64,000 bases of DNA from Ectopseudomonas mendocina (lineage in GTDB: Bacteria > Pseudomonadota > Gammaproteobacteria > Pseudomonadales > Pseudomonadaceae): the NCBI RefSeq assembly GCF_016008875.1, contig NZ_JADTQG010000005.1, positions 1 through 64,000 of the forward strand, given 5' to 3'. This document shows, in pieces, positions 4,038 to 63,861 of the stretch. The number at the start of each line of letters is the position of its first letter. The stretch's first letter is position 1. A program made the position numbers and the translations under genes. The notes below the pieces were generated by a model. It saw nothing but the letters and a program-made list of their open reading frames with translations, was not told the DNA's origin and searched no databases.

Positions 4038-5426
4038 ATGCGCATCCTCCCCCTCCTTATCCTGCTTCTGTGCCAGGCCGCCCATGCCGGGGAAATCGTC
4101 AACGACGTCAGCGGCATGAACCCCATCGAGGTCGCGCAGGTGCTGGCGCCTACCGAATTGGAGCAGATCGTCGAGGCGGTGCGCGGGCATGCCGGGCCCA
4201 TCGCCATTGGTGGCGGTCGCTACAGCATGGGCGGGCAGATCGCTACCGAGCAGGCCCTGCAACTGGACATGCGCCGCTTCAACCAGGTGCTGGAGTTTTC
4301 CGCAGAGCGTCGGGAGATTCGTGTGCAGGCCGGCATCACCTGGCGCGAAGTGCTGGAGTACATCGACCCACACGGTCTGTCGCCGCAGATCATGCAGTCC
4401 TACGCCAACTTCACCGTAGGCGGCGCGCTCAGCGTCAATGCCCACGGCCGTTACGTCGGCCAGGGGCCGCTGGTGCTCGGCGTGCGTTCGTTGCGTCTGG
4501 TGTTGGCCGACGGCCAGGTGGTGGACGCCAGCCCGACGCACAACAGCGAGCTCTTCTACGGTGCCATTGGCGGTTACGGCGGGCTGGGCGTCATCGTCGA
4601 AGCCACCCTGCCGCTGGTGGAGAACAGCAAGCTGATGCGTCAGACGCAAGTCATGCCGCTCAGTGACTATGCGCAGTTCTTCGCCAGCCAGGTCGTCGAC
4701 AACCCGGACATGGTGATGCACAACGGCATTCTCTACGCCGACGACTACAACAGCGTTCGCGCCGTGTCCTACCTGCGTACGGACGCACCGCTGACCGTGA
4801 CGGAAGGCCTGGTGCCGCTGGACCGCGACTATAAGGCCATGCGCGCCGCATTGACAGTAGCCAGCAGCAATGGCGGTGCCAAGGTGCGTGAAAGTCTGGT
4901 CGACCCGCTACTGCTCAAACGACCGCAGGTGCAGTGGCGCAACCATGAAGCCAGCCTGGATGTGCGCGAGCTGCAGCCCATTTCCGGCCCCGGCTACAGC
5001 TACGTGCTGCAGGAGTATTTCGTCCCGCAAGCCCAACTGGAGCAGTTCGTAGCAGGAATGAAGGAGGTGCTCCAGGAGCACAAGGTCAAGGTCGCCAATA
5101 TCTCCATCCGCCATGCCAAGGCCGACCCGGGTACGCTGCTGGCCTGGGCTCGCGAAGACACCTTCGCGCTGGTGATCTATTACCGCCAGGGCGTCTCGCC
5201 CAGCGAGCGCGATGCCGTCGCCGACTGGACCCGGCAACTGATCGACCTCGCCATCGCCCACCAGGGCAGCTACTACCTGCCATATCAAATCCATGCCAGC
5301 CGTGAGCAGTTCCTCGCCGCCTATCCGCGCGCCGAAGCGTTCTTCGCGCTGAAAAAACGCGTCGACCCAAGCAACAAATTCCGCAACAAGCTGTGGGACG
5401 CCTACTATCGCAGGCAAGCTCCATAG
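4038..5426 (+). CDS. exported FAD-binding oxidase of the aldonolactone/alditol oxidase type
   Basis: A 462-residue flavoprotein with a cleavable signal peptide (residues 1-17, ending AHA). The PCMH-type FAD domain shows IAIGGGRYSMGGQ (55-67), GITWREVLEYI, GGALSVNAHGRY and IGGYGGLGVI; the C-terminal VDPSNKFRNKLW is the closing motif of this oxidase family. Such enzymes oxidise sugar alcohols or lactones with oxygen or a dye-type acceptor. The residue that carries covalent flavin in alditol and gulonolactone oxidases (His of RHS/GHS) is Tyr here, so FAD is probably not bound through that link. An AAGGA ribosome site sits 7 bases before the ATG. Substrate unknown. Confidence 0.82.
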   Translation: MRILPLLILLLCQAAHAGEIVNDVSGMNPIEVAQVLAPTELEQIVEAVRGHAGPIAIGGGRYSMGGQIATEQALQLDMRRFNQVLEFSAERREIRVQAGITWREVLEYIDPHGLSPQIMQSYANFTVGGALSVNAHGRYVGQGPLVLGVRSLRLVLADGQVVDASPTHNSELFYGAIGGYGGLGVIVEATLPLVENSKLMRQTQVMPLSDYAQFFASQVVDNPDMVMHNGILYADDYNSVRAVSYLRTDAPLTVTEGLVPLDRDYKAMRAALTVASSNGGAKVRESLVDPLLLKRPQVQWRNHEASLDVRELQPISGPGYSYVLQEYFVPQAQLEQFVAGMKEVLQEHKVKVANISIRHAKADPGTLLAWAREDTFALVIYYRQGVSPSERDAVADWTRQLIDLAIAHQGSYYLPYQIHASREQFLAAYPRAEAFFALKKRVDPSNKFRNKLWDAYYRRQAP

Positions 5427-58129: not shown

Positions 58130-58870
58130 CTATCGCCTCTGGTAATGCCGATGGATACGTGCCAACTCGCCGGAGCGCCGCAGTTGCTCGAGCGCCTCGC
58201 TCCACGCGGCAACCAGCGCATCGTCACTGTCACGGCTGAAGGCGATGTACAGCGAGGACCGATACAGCTCGATGGGGATTGGTCGCAGCATACCGGGCGC
58301 GATGCCGAGCTGGCGGCTGTAGTAGGCCACGCCGGCATCGGTATCGCCCACTATCACCTCGGTACGACCGGCCAGCAGCATGCTGTAGAGCTGCTGGCTT
58401 TCCACCGCGCTCTTGTCGAGGTTGTTGAAGCCCATCGACTCCAGCATGCTCGGCACCAGACCTGCGTGCCGCGTGGTGATGCGCGGAGCACGCAGCAGCT
58501 GTTCCAGGGACGTTATCGGCCGCGGCGCATTGGCCAACTGATAGGGATGAATGGACTCCTCCACGATCGGTCCCACCCACTTGTACAACGGCTCGCGCTC
58601 CTGCGTGCGAAACAGCGAATACATGATGGTCCGAGGTTGGATCCGCAGCGTGCGGGTAGTGCGCATGCTCGGCTGCAAGACGATTTCGAACTCGTCGCCG
58701 GTCAAGGCCATGATCGCCCGCACGATTTCCGTGGACATGCCGGTGAGCTGGCCGCCTTCCGCATAGTTGTAAGGCGCCCACTCCTCGGTGATCACTCGAT
58801 AGCGTTCAGCGCTAGCCAGAGGGCTGAGCAGCAGGCAAAACAGGGCCGCGGTAAATCTCGAACGCTTCAA
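58130..58870 (-). CDS. periplasmic solute-binding protein, SBP_bac_3-like
   Basis: A 246-residue exported protein, signal peptide MKRSRFTAALFCLLLSPLASA. The first lobe has YRVITEEWAPYNYAEGGQLTGMSTEIVRAIMALTGDEFEI and the second YSRQLGIAPGMLRPIPIELYRSSLYIAFSRDSDDALVAAWSEALEQLRRSGELARIHRHY. As with the protein at 37738, no transporter genes are adjacent. The group is often seen in pseudomonads as orphan binding proteins of unknown ligand. Confidence 0.84.
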   Translation of the reverse strand: MKRSRFTAALFCLLLSPLASAERYRVITEEWAPYNYAEGGQLTGMSTEIVRAIMALTGDEFEIVLQPSMRTTRTLRIQPRTIMYSLFRTQEREPLYKWVGPIVEESIHPYQLANAPRPITSLEQLLRAPRITTRHAGLVPSMLESMGFNNLDKSAVESQQLYSMLLAGRTEVIVGDTDAGVAYYSRQLGIAPGMLRPIPIELYRSSLYIAFSRDSDDALVAAWSEALEQLRRSGELARIHRHYQRR

Positions 58871-59013
58871 AGGGTGTGCCTGATGAACGGGTCATTGCTG
58901 GCCGGTGGAGCCTGGCCATGAGTCAGACAAGCATAGACGCCAACAAGCACGGGCTGCCGGAGGCATTCGCCATAAATTGTCGTCGGCGCCGACAGTGCCT
59001 GGCTCGGGCCCAA

Positions 59014-59029
59014 AGCTTAAAGTTAAGCT
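59014..59029. promoter_or_regulatory. perfect dyad upstream of merR-type gene
   Basis: AGCTTAA (59014-59020) and TTAAGCT (59023-59029) around AG, 33 bases before the MerR-family ATG. Its TTAA-AG-TTAA core resembles the centres of the two promoters at 60657-60779, suggesting autoregulation, although a good -35 element is not seen at the matching distance. Confidence 0.5.
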
Positions 59030-59062
59030 ACAGGTTTACGGCCTTTGGCGAAGACAACAGCG

Positions 59063-59509
59063 ATGAAAATTGGTGAATTGGCAAAGCGTACCGGGCTGGC
59101 GGCCTCACGTATTCGTTTCTACGAAAGCATCGGCCTGCTCAGGCCGGCGGAGCGTCAGGCCAACGGTTACCGCAGTTATTCGGAACAGGCAGTGCTGGTG
59201 CTCAACCTGATCACTACCGCGCAGCAGGCCGGCTTCAGCCTGGAGGAGTTGCGCACACTGCTGCCGCAGGATCTGGCGCAGTGGCAGCATGGCAAGCTGC
59301 TCGACACCCTGCACGCCAAGGTGAACGACATCGAGGCGCTGGAGCAGCGCCTGGCGCAGAGCAAAGGCCACCTGCTGGCGCTGATCGACGAGATCGAGAG
59401 CAAACCGGACGACCTCGATTGCGCGGCCAACGCCAGGCGAGTGCTGGCCAAGATGAACCTGGGCGAGCCGAACGAGCCAACCAGGCGCACGGGGAGCAAG
59501 CGCAGATAA
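59063..59509 (+). CDS. MerR-family regulator
   Basis: A 148-residue regulator: MKIGELAKRTGLAASRIRFYESIGLLRPAERQANGYRSYSEQAV is the winged helix, followed by the long dimerisation coiled coil (HAKVNDIEALEQRLAQSKGHLLALIDEIES). After it comes CAANARRVLAKMN with one Cys, too few for the metal or Fe-S sites of CueR or SoxR, so the ligand is likely organic or redox. The start at 59063 is chosen over a TTG 18 bases upstream. It probably controls the pair of divergent genes at 59566-60612 and 60808-62037. Confidence 0.88.
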   Translation: MKIGELAKRTGLAASRIRFYESIGLLRPAERQANGYRSYSEQAVLVLNLITTAQQAGFSLEELRTLLPQDLAQWQHGKLLDTLHAKVNDIEALEQRLAQSKGHLLALIDEIESKPDDLDCAANARRVLAKMNLGEPNEPTRRTGSKRR

Positions 59510-59565
59510 GGCCGCCGTTTGCAGGAGCGGCCTGTTCAGCCAGCGAATGGCCGCTGCTCACCGGT

Positions 59566-60612
59566 TCAGCGCGACATCTGTGCCAACGGCTTGGGCGCGT
59601 AGAGCGCGCTCTGAAAGTCCGGCACGTATTCATACCTGATCATCTTGCCCAGCTTCAGCGACTCGATGTAGGTCGACAGGCTGCCCGCGCCGAGCGCCAG
59701 GCTCACCTTCTGCCCGTCCGAGCTCGCTGCATGGCGCATCTGCCGGGAAACGGCGTAGCCGAAAGCAAGCTCACCATCGTGTCCGATATTGGTGAAGCTG
59801 TTGGTCACCAACTCAGGTTCGGTAGATGCATCAGCGAGTTTCTCCACCTCGAAGGTAACGTCAAGCTTGCCGGTGTCGCCGTCGGCGATTTCGAAGACGA
59901 GACTCTTGTCGGTCTCGCGATAATCGATGGGCGTCAGCCACTTCGGCAGGTTGTAACCGACCACACCACGCACGCGCGCCAGCTCGGTGTTGACCGGCAG
60001 CTTGAGCACGTACCCCCAGAAGTCCTTGGACAGCGACTACCCGACCAGACTGATGGGGCCCAGGTTGGCATTGCCGGGCCTGTTGGTCACGATGGACAGG
60101 GCAATTTCGTTGTAGCTGTCATTGTCACAGTAGTGATAGGCGTAGGCGGTGAAGGCGACCAGCCCGCGGCCAGGCCAGATCTGCAGCGGCTGCACCTGCT
60201 CCAGCACCTGCGCCGGCATCAGCTCGCGAAGCCTGTCGAGGTCGGCGGTGAATACCGCGGTGACGCGTGTGTTGCGGTAATAGAAGTTCGGCGAGTAAGA
60301 CTCAAAGCCCATGTCCACCTTGGTTTTCTTCAGGCCGCGGAACCAGCTGAGATCAATATCCGGCGCCTCGTCCGCGATCACAGACAGCGGGGGATTGAAG
60401 TGGAAACGGTGGTAAAGCCCGCCCGCTTCCACCGGCACCGAATGGCCGGCGATATCGACCCTGGCAGCGTGTGCATCGGCCTCCTGTGCCCAAGCGGGCA
60501 TGGCCACGAGGTTGAAGATCATCCCGGCCAGCGCCGCAGTGCGCTGGCGTCTTAGACGTTTAGTAAGCACGGCAATCTGCTTCATCGTTCTTATCCGCGT
60601 TGAGGAATTCAT
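59566..60612 (-). pseudogene. exported acetoacetate-decarboxylase-fold protein, in-frame amber stop
   Basis: A single frame of 348 codons interrupted only by TAG at codon 192 (60037-60039). The start MNSSTRIRTMKQIAVLTKRL is followed by a signal peptide (ALAGMIFNLVAMPAWA), so the product is exported. The domain reads VTAVFTADLDRLRELMPAQVL, QIWPGRGLVAFTAYAYHY, NEIALSIV before the stop and SLSKDFWGYVLKLPVNTELARVRGVVGYNLPKWLTPIDY after it, the acetoacetate decarboxylase fold with a Lys in NLPKW. Sequence on both sides is in the same frame and fully conserved in style, so the stop looks recent, or a base-call error, or is read through. AGGGAA lies before the ATG at 60612; the gene is driven by the MerR-type promoter at 60657-60687. 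Confidence 0.8.
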
Positions 60613-60656
60613 AGGTTCCCTGCTCCTCGGAAGGTCTCCGAGGGGCAGACGCGGCA

Positions 60657-60687
60657 ACCCTAAGGTTAAATATAACTTCAAGGTCAA
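60657..60687 (-). promoter_or_regulatory. MerR-type promoter for the decarboxylase-fold gene
   Basis: On the reverse strand TTGACC (60687-60682), a 19-base spacer and TAGGGT (60662-60657). The spacer holds an imperfect dyad, AAGTTA-TAT-TTAACCTT. A 19-base spacer is the mark of promoters activated by MerR-family twisting; 45 bases separate it from the ATG at 60612. Confidence 0.65.
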
Positions 60688-60748
60688 GCAGTCGAATCAA
60701 GTAGATTGTTTCAAAGCGGTAACATGCCGAAGCGAGCACAAACGCCCG

Positions 60749-60779
60749 TTGACATTAAAGTGAACTTTAAAGTTAAGGT
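60749..60779 (+). promoter_or_regulatory. MerR-type promoter for the OYE-family gene
   Basis: TTGACA (60749-60754), a 19-base spacer and TAAGGT (60774-60779). The spacer contains a perfect dyad, TTAAAGT-GA-ACTTTAA (60755-60770), placed as in SoxR and CueR promoters. The downstream ATG is 29 bases from the -10. Confidence 0.75.
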
Positions 60780-60807
60780 CAGCGCGTCTTCAGCCGAGGA
60801 AGCACCC

Positions 60808-62037
60808 ATGACCCTGTTCGATCCCCTTGTCCTGCCCAATGGCTCGATCATCCCCAACCGCCTCGCCAAGGCGGCGATGGAAGAGAACATGGCGGATAGC
60901 GAGCACGCGCCGTCCGAGCACCTGATGCGCCTTTATCAGGGCTGGGCCGAGGGCGGCGCCGGCCTGCTGATTTCCGGCAACGTGATGGTCGACAGCCGCG
61001 CCATGACCGGCCCCGGTGGCGTGGTGCTGGAAGACGAAGCGCAGCTGGCCAGGTTCGAGCGCTGGGCTTCGGTCGGCCGTACCAAAGGCGCGCAGTTCTG
61101 GCTGCAGATCAACCATCCCGGCCGGCAGATGCAAGCCAACCTGGGCCAGCCGACCTGGGCACCCTCTGCGGTGCCGTTGGAGCTGGGCAACCTGTCCAAG
61201 CGTTTCGCCACGCCGCTGGCGATGACCGAAACAATGATCGCTGAAGTGATCCAGCGCTTCGCCCACACGGCACAGCTCACCGAACGCGCAGGTTTCAACG
61301 GTGTGCAAATCCACGCCGCGCATGGCTACCTGCTCAGCCAGTTCCTCTCCCCCTTGAGCAATCTGCGCAGTGACCAGTGGGGCGGCTCGCTGGAGAACCG
61401 CGCGCGCCTGCTGCTGGAAATCGTCAAGGCGGTGCGTGCTGCGGTGGCACCCGGTTTCGCCGTGGCGGTCAAGCTCAACTCGGCAGACTTCCAGCGTGGC
61501 GGCTTCAGCGCCGCCGACGCACAACAGGTGGTGCGCCTGCTCGACGGCCAGGGCGTGGACCTGGTCGAGTTGTCCGGTGGCAGCTACGAAGCGCCGGCCA
61601 TGCAGGGTCAGGCCCGCGACGGCCGTACCCTGGCGCGCGAAGCCTACTTCCTGGAGTTCGCCCGCGAGATTCGTGCCGTGGCGAGCATGCCGCTTATGGT
61701 CACCGGTGGCATCCGCCGTGCAGCGGTGGCGCAGGAAGTGCTGGCCAGCGGCATCGAGATGGTCGGCATCGGCACGGCCCTGGCCATCGACCCGAGCCTG
61801 CCACGTGACTGGCAGCTCGGCCTCGGCAGCGCTCCCCAGCTGCCGCCGATCACCTGGAACAATAAGGTGCTGGCCTCTCTGGCCAACATGGCACTGGTCA
61901 AATATCACTTGCGCAAGTTGAGCCAGGGCCAAGGCACCCAGCCCGGCGTAGCCCCCTCATGGGCACTGTTGACCCAGCAAGTGCAGGACATATTCAGCGC
62001 TCGCCGATATCGGCGCTGGATGCAGCGACGCCACTGA
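60808..62037 (+). CDS. NADH:flavin oxidoreductase, old yellow enzyme superfamily
   Basis: A 409-residue FMN TIM barrel: LFDPLVLPNGSIIPNRLAKAAMEENMAD at the start, FWLQINHPGRQ, GFNGVQIHAAHGYLLSQFLSPLSNLRSDQWGGSLENRARLLLEIV (active-site H-x2-H and substrate loop) and PLMVTGGIRRAAVAQEVLASGIEMVGIGTAL (phosphate site). It lacks the Fe-S and NAD domains of full-length 2,4-dienoyl-CoA reductase. It likely reduces activated C=C bonds. GAGGA precedes the ATG at 60808. Divergent from the decarboxylase-fold gene and under MerR-type promoter. Confidence 0.9.
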   Translation: MTLFDPLVLPNGSIIPNRLAKAAMEENMADSEHAPSEHLMRLYQGWAEGGAGLLISGNVMVDSRAMTGPGGVVLEDEAQLARFERWASVGRTKGAQFWLQINHPGRQMQANLGQPTWAPSAVPLELGNLSKRFATPLAMTETMIAEVIQRFAHTAQLTERAGFNGVQIHAAHGYLLSQFLSPLSNLRSDQWGGSLENRARLLLEIVKAVRAAVAPGFAVAVKLNSADFQRGGFSAADAQQVVRLLDGQGVDLVELSGGSYEAPAMQGQARDGRTLAREAYFLEFAREIRAVASMPLMVTGGIRRAAVAQEVLASGIEMVGIGTALAIDPSLPRDWQLGLGSAPQLPPITWNNKVLASLANMALVKYHLRKLSQGQGTQPGVAPSWALLTQQVQDIFSARRYRRWMQRRH

Positions 62038-62040
62038 TAC

Positions 62041-62808
62041 TCAGAAAGCCAGCACCTCACCATCCTGTGGAATCAGCAGCTCGACCTGTGCGCGGGCAGC
62101 GGCTTCGGCCAGCGCCACGCGGCTGACCGGGCAGTGACTGATGGCTTCCAGATGATTGGCCACCACTGCCGCGCCGCTCAACCGGGTGAACTCGATCACC
62201 TCGTCGATGCCCATGATAATGTCGCCGCCCAGGTCGAAGCGCGCGCCACCTGCCGGCACCACAGACACGGCTGGCCGGTGCTCGCGCACACAAGCGCGCA
62301 CCTCGTCGGTAAGCAGGGTGTCGCCGGCCAAGTACAGGCTCGGCTCACCCGGCATCTCGATCAGAAAACCGACACCGTGCTCCATCAGGCGCCCGACCAC
62401 TCCCCGACCGTGAGTGCAGCGGACAGTGCGGATGCGTCCGCCAAGAAAGGGACCGGGGAGATCATGCTCCGGCAACAATGGCTGGACATTCAGGCCACGC
62501 TGGCGCAGATGGTCGGCATCATGCGGGGTGCAGATCACCGGAATCTGTCGCTCGCGTAGCCAGCGGGTACCGGCACGATCCAGATGGTCGAAATGCCCTT
62601 TCTGGCAATGCGTGATCAGACAATGGGTGACCGATTCAAGCTCGGCCCAGGCTCCGTTTGGCAGCTCCACCAGCGGGTTGCGCTGGCGGGCGCCGAACAG
62701 ACGCAGCGGCGGCAACGCGTCCCGCCGGGCCAGCATGGGGTCGACCAGCACTCGATGCTGACCGAATTCGACGATGATGGTGGCGTTGCGCAGTTGCTGG
62801 ATTTTCAT
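62041..62808 (-). CDS. MBL-fold metallo-hydrolase
   Basis: A 255-residue protein of the UlaG/RomA-like metallo-beta-lactamase fold. It starts MKIQQLRNATIIVEFGQHRVLVDPML; the metal motif is ITHCQKGHFDHLDRAG, where two extra residues separate the first His from HxDH. Later metal residues lie in YLAGDTLL (Asp) and VVANHLEAISHCP (His). Substrate unknown. Start at 62808 chosen at the domain boundary. It ends three bases from the OYE-family gene (convergent) and is divergent from the GlxA-type gene. Confidence 0.86.
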   Translation of the reverse strand: MKIQQLRNATIIVEFGQHRVLVDPMLARRDALPPLRLFGARQRNPLVELPNGAWAELESVTHCLITHCQKGHFDHLDRAGTRWLRERQIPVICTPHDADHLRQRGLNVQPLLPEHDLPGPFLGGRIRTVRCTHGRGVVGRLMEHGVGFLIEMPGEPSLYLAGDTLLTDEVRACVREHRPAVSVVPAGGARFDLGGDIIMGIDEVIEFTRLSGAAVVANHLEAISHCPVSRVALAEAAARAQVELLIPQDGEVLAF

Positions 62809-62904
62809 GAAAAGCCCTCGAGTTCTGAGAGCTCCATGCTGCCTATCCGCCCCAGGAACAATAATGGCAGCATTGGACATTTTAGATTCATTTCAGGCCA
62901 CCCA

Positions 62905-63861
62905 ATGCGCATTGGTTTGCTGCTGTTTCCCGATTGCATGCCCGCCGGACTGCTGGCTTTTGCCGATTTGCTGCACGCAGCCAATCGCCGGAGCGCAACA
63001 GCACTGTTCGAGGTTCGCTATATCGCCGAGCAGGCCGGGCCGGTGCAGTGCGCCCATGGCCTCGTGCTGCAAGCGCACGCCAACCTCGACCCACGCACGC
63101 TAGATGCCTTGCTTATCCCCGGTTTCTGGGCGGAGTCGGCAGAGCAGGTCGATACGCTGCTGACGAGCAATGCCACGCTGATCAAGGCGCTTTCGGCCGC
63201 AGGCAAGCGCATTCAGCTTTGGAGTTATTGCACGGGTGTCGGCCTGCTCGCGGCCAGCGGCCGGCTCAACGATCAGGCAGCGACGGTAACCTGGTGGCTG
63301 GCGGACGTGATGCGCGAGCGCTTCCCCCGGGTTCGCTGGCAAAGCGAGAGCAGTTGCGTGTTCACCCAGCGCGTGGCCACCGCCTCCGGGGTGAACGGTT
63401 ATTTGCCCATCGCCCAAGGAGTCATCGAGCGTCATGTCAGCGAGGACGTGTTCAAGGACCTCAGCCAGTTGATGGTGCTACCCCGCCCGGCTGTGCCCCA
63501 CAGTGCATTTCAGGGCGCCAGCCTGATGCAGCAACCGGCGGGGCTGTTGCGGCGCCTGCATACCTTGATCGAGCAGACGCCTGCCGAACAGCTGACCGTG
63601 CAGAGCCTGGCCGACAGGCTGGCGATGTCCGAGCGCACCCTGGCGCGCAAGGTGCGGGCGGAAACCGGCGAGGCCGTGGCGAGCTACGCCAGGCGCATCA
63701 AGCTCTATCAGCTCAGTGAACGCCTGGCCATGACCTCGACGCCTCTCGGTACCCTGAGCGCTGATCTGGGTTTCAGCAGCCCGGCCAATCTGCGGCGCAT
63801 GTTCAAGGCACTGACCGGGCTGACACCTGCGCAATATCGCCAGCAGTATGAGCGTCAGTAA
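62905..63861 (+). CDS. GlxA-type regulator (DJ-1/PfpI domain plus AraC HTH)
   Basis: A 318-residue regulator. Residues 1-190 form a class I glutamine-amidotransferase-like (DJ-1/PfpI) domain: MRIGLLLFPDCMPAGLLAFADLLHAAN, LDALLIPGFW, and a nucleophile-elbow-like LWSYCTGVGLLAASGRL with Cys. The C-terminal AraC HTH covers LTVQSLADRLAMSERTLARKV and LGFSSPANLRRMFKALTGLTPAQYR. The ligand is unknown. It is head-to-head with the MBL hydrolase gene, its likely target. The remaining 139 bases to the window end show no gene. Confidence 0.88.
   Translation: MRIGLLLFPDCMPAGLLAFADLLHAANRRSATALFEVRYIAEQAGPVQCAHGLVLQAHANLDPRTLDALLIPGFWAESAEQVDTLLTSNATLIKALSAAGKRIQLWSYCTGVGLLAASGRLNDQAATVTWWLADVMRERFPRVRWQSESSCVFTQRVATASGVNGYLPIAQGVIERHVSEDVFKDLSQLMVLPRPAVPHSAFQGASLMQQPAGLLRRLHTLIEQTPAEQLTVQSLADRLAMSERTLARKVRAETGEAVASYARRIKLYQLSERLAMTSTPLGTLSADLGFSSPANLRRMFKALTGLTPAQYRQQYERQ

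Follow-up and report, generated by a model that had tools for sequence, protein, structure and literature searches.

A conserved MerR-type regulon with two divergent 19-bp-spacer promoters and a single-cysteine regulator in Ectopseudomonas mendocina

The first 64 kb of contig 5 (NZ_JADTQG010000005.1, positions 1 to 64,000; hereafter the window) of the 5.1 Mb, 44-contig draft genome of Ectopseudomonas mendocina (GCF_016008875.1) carry a predicted MerR regulon, in which two divergent promoters with 19-bp spacers are accompanied by an operator upstream of the regulator gene, merR. Strong support for this assignment comes from its conservation far outside the genus. The promoters precede a gene of the old yellow enzyme (OYE) family and a decarboxylase-like gene (adc). 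We hold with moderate confidence that the regulator is a MerR-type activator-by-distortion of genes for the detoxification of carbonyl electrophiles and that it senses its signal via its cysteine, Cys120. The sites, their conservation, the regulon membership assigned by footprint and the invariance of Cys120 are direct readings of sequence. The parts of the locus are the following.

59014-59029, no strand assigned: merR operator dyad AGCTTAA-AG-TTAAGCT, recognized by its dyad sequence and its kinship with related sites elsewhere
59063-59509, plus strand: gene of a MerR-family regulator of 148 amino acids, recognized by Pfam domains and a CueR-like sequence and fold
59566-60585, minus strand: decarboxylase-like gene (ADC family) with a predicted signal peptide, based on a weak Pfam ADC match and interrupted by a stop
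60687-60657, minus strand: adc promoter and box, TTGACC-TTGAAGTTATATTTAACCT-TAGGGT, 19-bp spacer, recognized by sequence and conserved upstream of adc in relatives
60749-60779, plus strand: OYE promoter and box, TTGACA-TTAAAGTGAACTTTAAAGT-TAAGGT, 19-bp spacer, recognized by sequence and conserved upstream of OYE genes
60808-62037, plus strand: gene of an OYE-family NAD(P)H:flavin oxidoreductase (putative ene-reductase) of 409 amino acids, recognized by Pfam Oxidored_FMN

A sequence-only reading of the window had proposed divergent TTGACC-N19-TAGGGT and TTGACA-N19-TAAGGT promoters with dyads in their spacers, and we recovered both promoters and both dyads. The dyad in the plus-strand spacer is perfect (7+7; TTAAAGT-GA-ACTTTAA, 60755-60770), and the imperfect minus-strand dyad differs from it by three mismatches. 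The two 31-bp promoter elements are separated by 61 bp and belong to a 41-nt inverted repeat that is 73% complementary. In earlier work, placement of the operator dyad within a 19–20 bp spacer is the rule in the MerR family (PMC5045206, PMC9909328), and the distance between the site centre and the -35 element is either 8 bp, as given for MerR and HMRTR sites, or 7 bp, as given for CueR sites (PMC5045206). Both promoters have their dyad inside such a spacer, and in the OYE promoter the dyad centre and the 3' end of the -35 element are 8 bp apart.

Chance expectations set these sites apart. TTGAC-N20-TANNNT occurs at only two sites in the window, both of them these promoters (0.37 expected), and dyad matches with up to three mismatches are likewise confined to the two promoters (0.11 expected). 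Genome-wide, TTGACN-N19-TANNNT without the dyad was not enriched (24 matches vs. 33 in the reversed control). The genome search that the earlier reading had suggested, run with TTGACNTTNAAGTNNNNTTNAANNTTA at up to three mismatches, returned four rows (control, 0). Three of these are the window promoters, with the OYE site counted once in each orientation, and the fourth is an unrelated match with three mismatches. These counts indicate that promoter spacing is uninformative alone and that the dyad makes the sites stand out in the genome. With the dyad included, just the two window sites match, and a larger regulon in this genome was not found. A sigma-70 scan of 58850-62300 with 16–18 bp spacers yielded no promoter, as expected for spacers of 19 bp. 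Another 19-bp promoter with a dyad, TTGACCTCAAGTTAGGTTGAGGTTTTACCCT, which we take to be a SoxR-type box, lies at G000:C1:298461-298491 near a distant MerR relative at C1:298218.

We then consider conservation. In a genus sample of 119 genomes, including the one studied here, the regulator (E ≤ 1e-30) was detected in 48 and the box (at most one mismatch) in 50, and the reversed-pattern control matched none of the 119. All 48 regulator-positive genomes carry the box vs. 2 of the 71 without a listed regulator match, and in both exceptions (G048 and G095) a 45% identical regulator adjoins the box. A Fisher test of the co-occurrence gives 2e-31, which is not a true probability since related genomes are non-independent. 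The 23 OYE upstream regions examined in the genus all display a TTGA-N21-TANNNT promoter 57–63 bp before the ATG. A second set of 80 named loci from three proteobacterial classes (69 non-Pseudomonas, 11 Pseudomonas) was collected by the regulator alone. The box, with at most two mismatches, is present in 77 of these loci (67 of the 69 non-Pseudomonas and 10 of the 11 Pseudomonas loci), compared with 0/80 for the reversed control. Of the OYE genes in the named loci, 43 have a visible start, and the box lies 57–65 bp upstream of every one of them, with no mismatch in 21, one in 6 and two in 16. A longer box pattern, searched by itself at zero mismatches, matched 1 of 273 other genomes of the class. 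By these matches, the regulator, the box and the single cysteine recur across alpha-, beta- and gammaproteobacteria.

Regulon membership in other genomes was tracked with a census of 159 boxes (at most two mismatches) in 100 loci, i.e., the 80 named loci and 20 from the genus. Five main families account for 131 of the genes following a box: OYE (56), adc (34), alpha/beta hydrolase (19), DJ-1/PfpI (16) and saccharopine-dehydrogenase-like (6). The remaining boxes precede merR (4), other genes (19) or no frame in reach (5). Sixteen of the 19 other genes look like one NAD-binding epimerase-like family (Pfam on one member), two (L133 and L141) are apparently wrong frames, and one, in L156 (5735-8439), encodes a [2Fe-2S] subunit with a molybdopterin enzyme encoded next, a pair that is possibly an aldehyde oxidase under the same box. 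The gene set differs between loci. An aldehyde dehydrogenase is a neighbour in 12 of the 80 named loci, and large plasmids of Paraburkholderia and Shinella (L176 and L177) combine the same gene set with an annotated coniferyl aldehyde dehydrogenase. The alpha/beta hydrolase resembles the enol-lactonase PcaD at a low score, and the DJ-1/PfpI protein begins with a signal-peptide-like stretch, as judged by eye. Due to the retention of the box where the decarboxylase-like gene (L072, L074, L075) or the OYE gene (L073, L077) is distant from merR, the regulator very likely acts in trans. In the E. mendocina genome, the best relative of the alpha/beta hydrolase is only a 38% partial match, and a search for relatives of the exported DJ-1-like protein, run without a positive control, came back empty.

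The OYE protein is a predicted ene-reductase by family. Its Oxidored_FMN match (PF00724; E 1.1e-50) reaches 173.3 bits vs. a cut-off of 27, its nearest solved sequence is 7fev (2.3e-70), and its translation contains HAAHGY, presumably the catalytic motif. The sequence-only reading had described a compact regulon for this reductase and an exported decarboxylase-like protein. The MerR regulon with its conserved boxes stands; the decarboxylase-like gene, which has a signal-peptide-like N-terminus as judged by eye, is interrupted here by an in-frame TAG that had been overlooked (60037-60039, minus strand; codon 183 of 339). The nearest relative, Pseudomonas yangonensis MY50 (L092), carries CAG at this codon and is identical at 994 of 1017 nt, and all eight compared relatives have Gln at this position and intact frames. 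The TAG is either a real mutation or a sequencing error of the 44-contig draft. L097 retains only a C-terminal remnant of the gene (4529-5092) beside an intact OYE box, and no decarboxylase-like copy was found between merR and OYE in L009 and L099. Taken together, the TAG, the remnant and these absences suggest that the gene is dispensable in the clade, or that the TAG is a draft error. As a consequence of the stop, the working regulon in this genome probably consists of OYE and merR itself.

A related dyad before merR, also anticipated by the earlier reading, was found at 59014-59029, where it ends 34 nt from the merR ATG. As no TTGAC -35 element faces away from it, we read this dyad as an autoregulatory operator, and merR would thus control its own expression. 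Related GGTTAAAGT-type sites are located upstream of merR in close relatives and likewise in genus loci, and there is no clear box upstream of merR in L112 and L144.

The regulator itself combines the winged-helix DNA-binding domain and the dimerization helix of the MerR family, as indicated by Pfam, a structural model and matches to the Protein Data Bank (PDB). The Pfam matches all exceed their cut-offs (MerR_1, PF13411, 1.1e-18; MerR, PF00376, 1.4e-14; MerR-DNA-bind, PF09278, 7.9e-11). CueR is the nearest solved sequence (1q05) and the best PDB fold match (1q06) of the AlphaFold model, a monomer with mean pLDDT 84.1 and pTM 0.58 in which residues 134–148 are unreliable. The claim of the earlier reading that the regulator has no metal-binding residues overlooks its sole cysteine, Cys120 (codon 59420-59422), which aligns with CueR Cys120, the second CueR metal-ligand position; the first CueR ligand cysteine is absent. 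Cys120 is invariant in the 81 window and named sequences and the only cysteine in 79 of them, and it is also present in 30/30 genus-search sequences and 47/47 sequences of alignment A1. The model puts Cys120 at the first position of the final helix, where the pKa of a thiol is often lowered. A tree of 53 proteins, in which long branches were flagged, groups 47 family members together and apart from the other MerR proteins of the genome (97/94) and divides the family into two sub-groups. Both sub-groups occur side by side in five Burkholderia/Paraburkholderia loci (L116, L133, L147, L156 and L171).

We propose that, without a signal, a regulator dimer bound to the dyad in the 19-bp spacer would keep the promoters inactive. 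With the signal, the regulator would twist the DNA so that RNA polymerase gains both promoters, and OYE and the divergent decarboxylase-like gene would be switched on, while the third site, at merR, would let the regulator restrict its own synthesis. A long spacer, repression without signal and activation with signal through DNA distortion constitute the MerR-family mechanism (PMC9909328), and we assume the distortion by analogy with the family. The most likely signal is a reactive carbonyl electrophile such as an alpha,beta-unsaturated ketone or aldehyde, a quinone or a dicarbonyl. This would follow from the enzymes behind the boxes, which by family act on carbonyl-conjugated C=C bonds, aldehydes and dicarbonyls, as well as from the one invariant thiol and the lack of a drug-binding domain. 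An enone or electrophile signal, as the earlier reading had also considered, is thus plausible. The electrophile would modify Cys120, which is sited where CueR-type sensors hold their second metal ligand, and the induced enzymes would clear such compounds, with OYE reducing the activated C=C bond. Other species would also have a DJ-1/PfpI protein, an alpha/beta hydrolase and reductase/epimerase-type enzymes that bind NAD(P) under this box, and in E. mendocina the output would probably be OYE, given the stop in the decarboxylase-like gene. The recurrence of switch, box and cysteine suggests that reactive carbonyl compounds are countered by a defence that has received little study. More tentatively, and with less confidence than we place in the local mechanism, the family may represent a widespread unnamed class of one-cysteine MerR regulators of CueR-like origin, in which ligand loss left Cys120 as an electrophile sensor; its shared box regulon of carbonyl-detoxifying enzymes could have OYE, alpha/beta hydrolase and reductases as its cytosolic arm and ADC-like and DJ-1/PfpI proteins as its exported one in alpha-, beta- and gammaproteobacteria.

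Several points weigh against this interpretation. The regulon could answer to something other than electrophiles. Since the box pattern was composed after inspection of 30 genus loci, the genus co-occurrence test is in part circular, and the loci outside the genus, together with the controls, provide a cleaner one. The regulator is present without a nearby box in three named loci (L093, L112 and L144), and L093 and L112 are also without any other regulon gene nearby. The ADC name is tentative because the scores remain under the Pfam cut-off of 29.8 (25.3 bits, E 1.3e-5, with X at the stop; 24.8 for the intact L092 protein). Finally, His76, present in 76 of the 81 window and named regulators, could form a metal site together with Cys120. 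A CueR-kind sensor with such a reduced site, formed by Cys120 and His76 of the partner protomer, would be in line with CueR and CadR being the nearest relatives in fold and sequence. However, the first CueR ligand cysteine is absent, the NCBIfam CueR score is 79.2 vs. a cut-off of 147.4, no metal efflux or detoxification gene was seen with the box, and five of the six other MerR paralogues read in the genome retain at least two C-terminal cysteines. We therefore regard a metal role for the regulator as unlikely, and this particular sensor as highly improbable.

The regulon could instead serve catabolism, with the regulator binding one enone or aldehyde metabolite, e.g., of plant or lignin origin, non-covalently and the enzymes degrading it. 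The coniferyl aldehyde dehydrogenases annotated in the cluster on two plasmids, their relatives in 12 of the 80 named loci and the resemblance of the hydrolase to PcaD agree with such a role, and enzymes of the OYE and ADC families can have pathway roles. Yet the regulator is short and has no large-ligand or drug-binding domain according to Pfam and the model, the variation of the gene set between loci resembles a stress response rather than a single pathway, and Cys120 is invariant. We give a catabolic switch a minor share of our expectation, larger than that of any other alternative. Redox sensing, in which oxidants or reactive chlorine would convert Cys120 of two protomers to a disulfide or mixed disulfide and repair or detoxification would fall to OYE and DJ-1-type proteins, would fit one cysteine per protomer, as this permits an inter-protomer disulfide. 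However, the genes classified behind the 159 boxes include no peroxidase, catalase or thioredoxin-type gene, and this option appears more doubtful than the catabolic one. That the sites are functionless chance matches could be argued from the hexamers and 19-bp spacing, which are unenriched (24 vs. 33). With the dyad, reversed controls find 0/119 genomes and 0/80 loci and the zero-mismatch pattern 1/273 other class genomes, and position and sequence are conserved before orthologous genes in three classes. This conservation already refutes the chance explanation, to which we assign a negligible probability. A MerR-type switch responding to carbonyl electrophiles through Cys120 is the reading we retain.

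Downstream of OYE, the window encodes a metallo-beta-lactamase-fold protein (62044-62880) and an AraC-type regulator with a DJ-1/PfpI-like domain (62803-63858; FtrA-like, sub-cut-off). The genome scan with hexamers and dyad at up to three mismatches found no regulon-type box at either gene.

For most bacterial OYEs, signals and physiological roles are unclear despite their popularity as biocatalysts. A conserved regulator, one candidate sensing residue and a searchable promoter box render this question directly testable. If the proposal is true, the locus would be a simple case of a metal-sensor scaffold turned to the sensing of organic electrophiles, and it could supply a biosensor part for enones or aldehydes.

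Among known systems, the regulator is similar to CueR, CadR, ZntR and MerR in its winged helix, long dimer helix and C-terminal loop, in its operator within a 19-bp spacer and in the alignment of Cys120 with CueR Cys120, but its regulon consists of carbonyl enzymes and includes no metal export. Membership in the metal sensors was rejected, as only Cys120 is present and the scores for ZntR (62.2 vs. 167.95), CadR-PbrR (57.3 vs. 151.45) and MerR (56.9 vs. 150.85), like that for CueR, fall short; the regulator is under every NCBIfam equivalog cut-off. SoxR is a MerR-family protein with a similar style of box but has four C-terminal cysteines for a 2Fe-2S cluster, compared with one cysteine here, and its model was also rejected (44.1 vs. 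116.9 bits). NmlR and AdhR share with the regulator the control of carbonyl detoxification genes by a MerR protein with one conserved cysteine, and the Bacillus subtilis protein YraA is DJ-1/PfpI-like. After exposure of B. subtilis to methylglyoxal or formaldehyde, AdhR controls adhA, yraA and yraC, the last encoding a decarboxylase-family protein, and Cys54 (Cys52 in AdhR) is absolutely conserved in the NmlR/AdhR clade (PMC4776306). The regulator here differs by Gln54 and Thr52, by its C-terminal cysteine (Cys120) and by its other target enzymes; lacking Cys54/Cys52 and scoring 51 vs. 175 bits with the NmlR model, it was not assigned to this clade. NemA, the N-ethylmaleimide reductase, is an OYE-family enzyme. 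The E. coli NemR-nemA-gloA system provides electrophile-responsive control of this reductase and a glyoxalase (PMC7464077), which parallels the control over a reductase gene proposed here, although NemR belongs to the TetR-family repressors and has six cysteines, in contrast to the one-cysteine MerR-type protein in a promoter spacer here. The OYE OfrA is electrophile-induced as well (PMC9152700). Searches of the openly accessible literature (titles, abstract starts and some passages) listed neither a MerR-controlled OYE regulon like this one nor the box sequence, and a description in a subscription journal is possible. Set beside these systems, the regulon is real, well conserved and of a known kind, and it has an unusual regulator.
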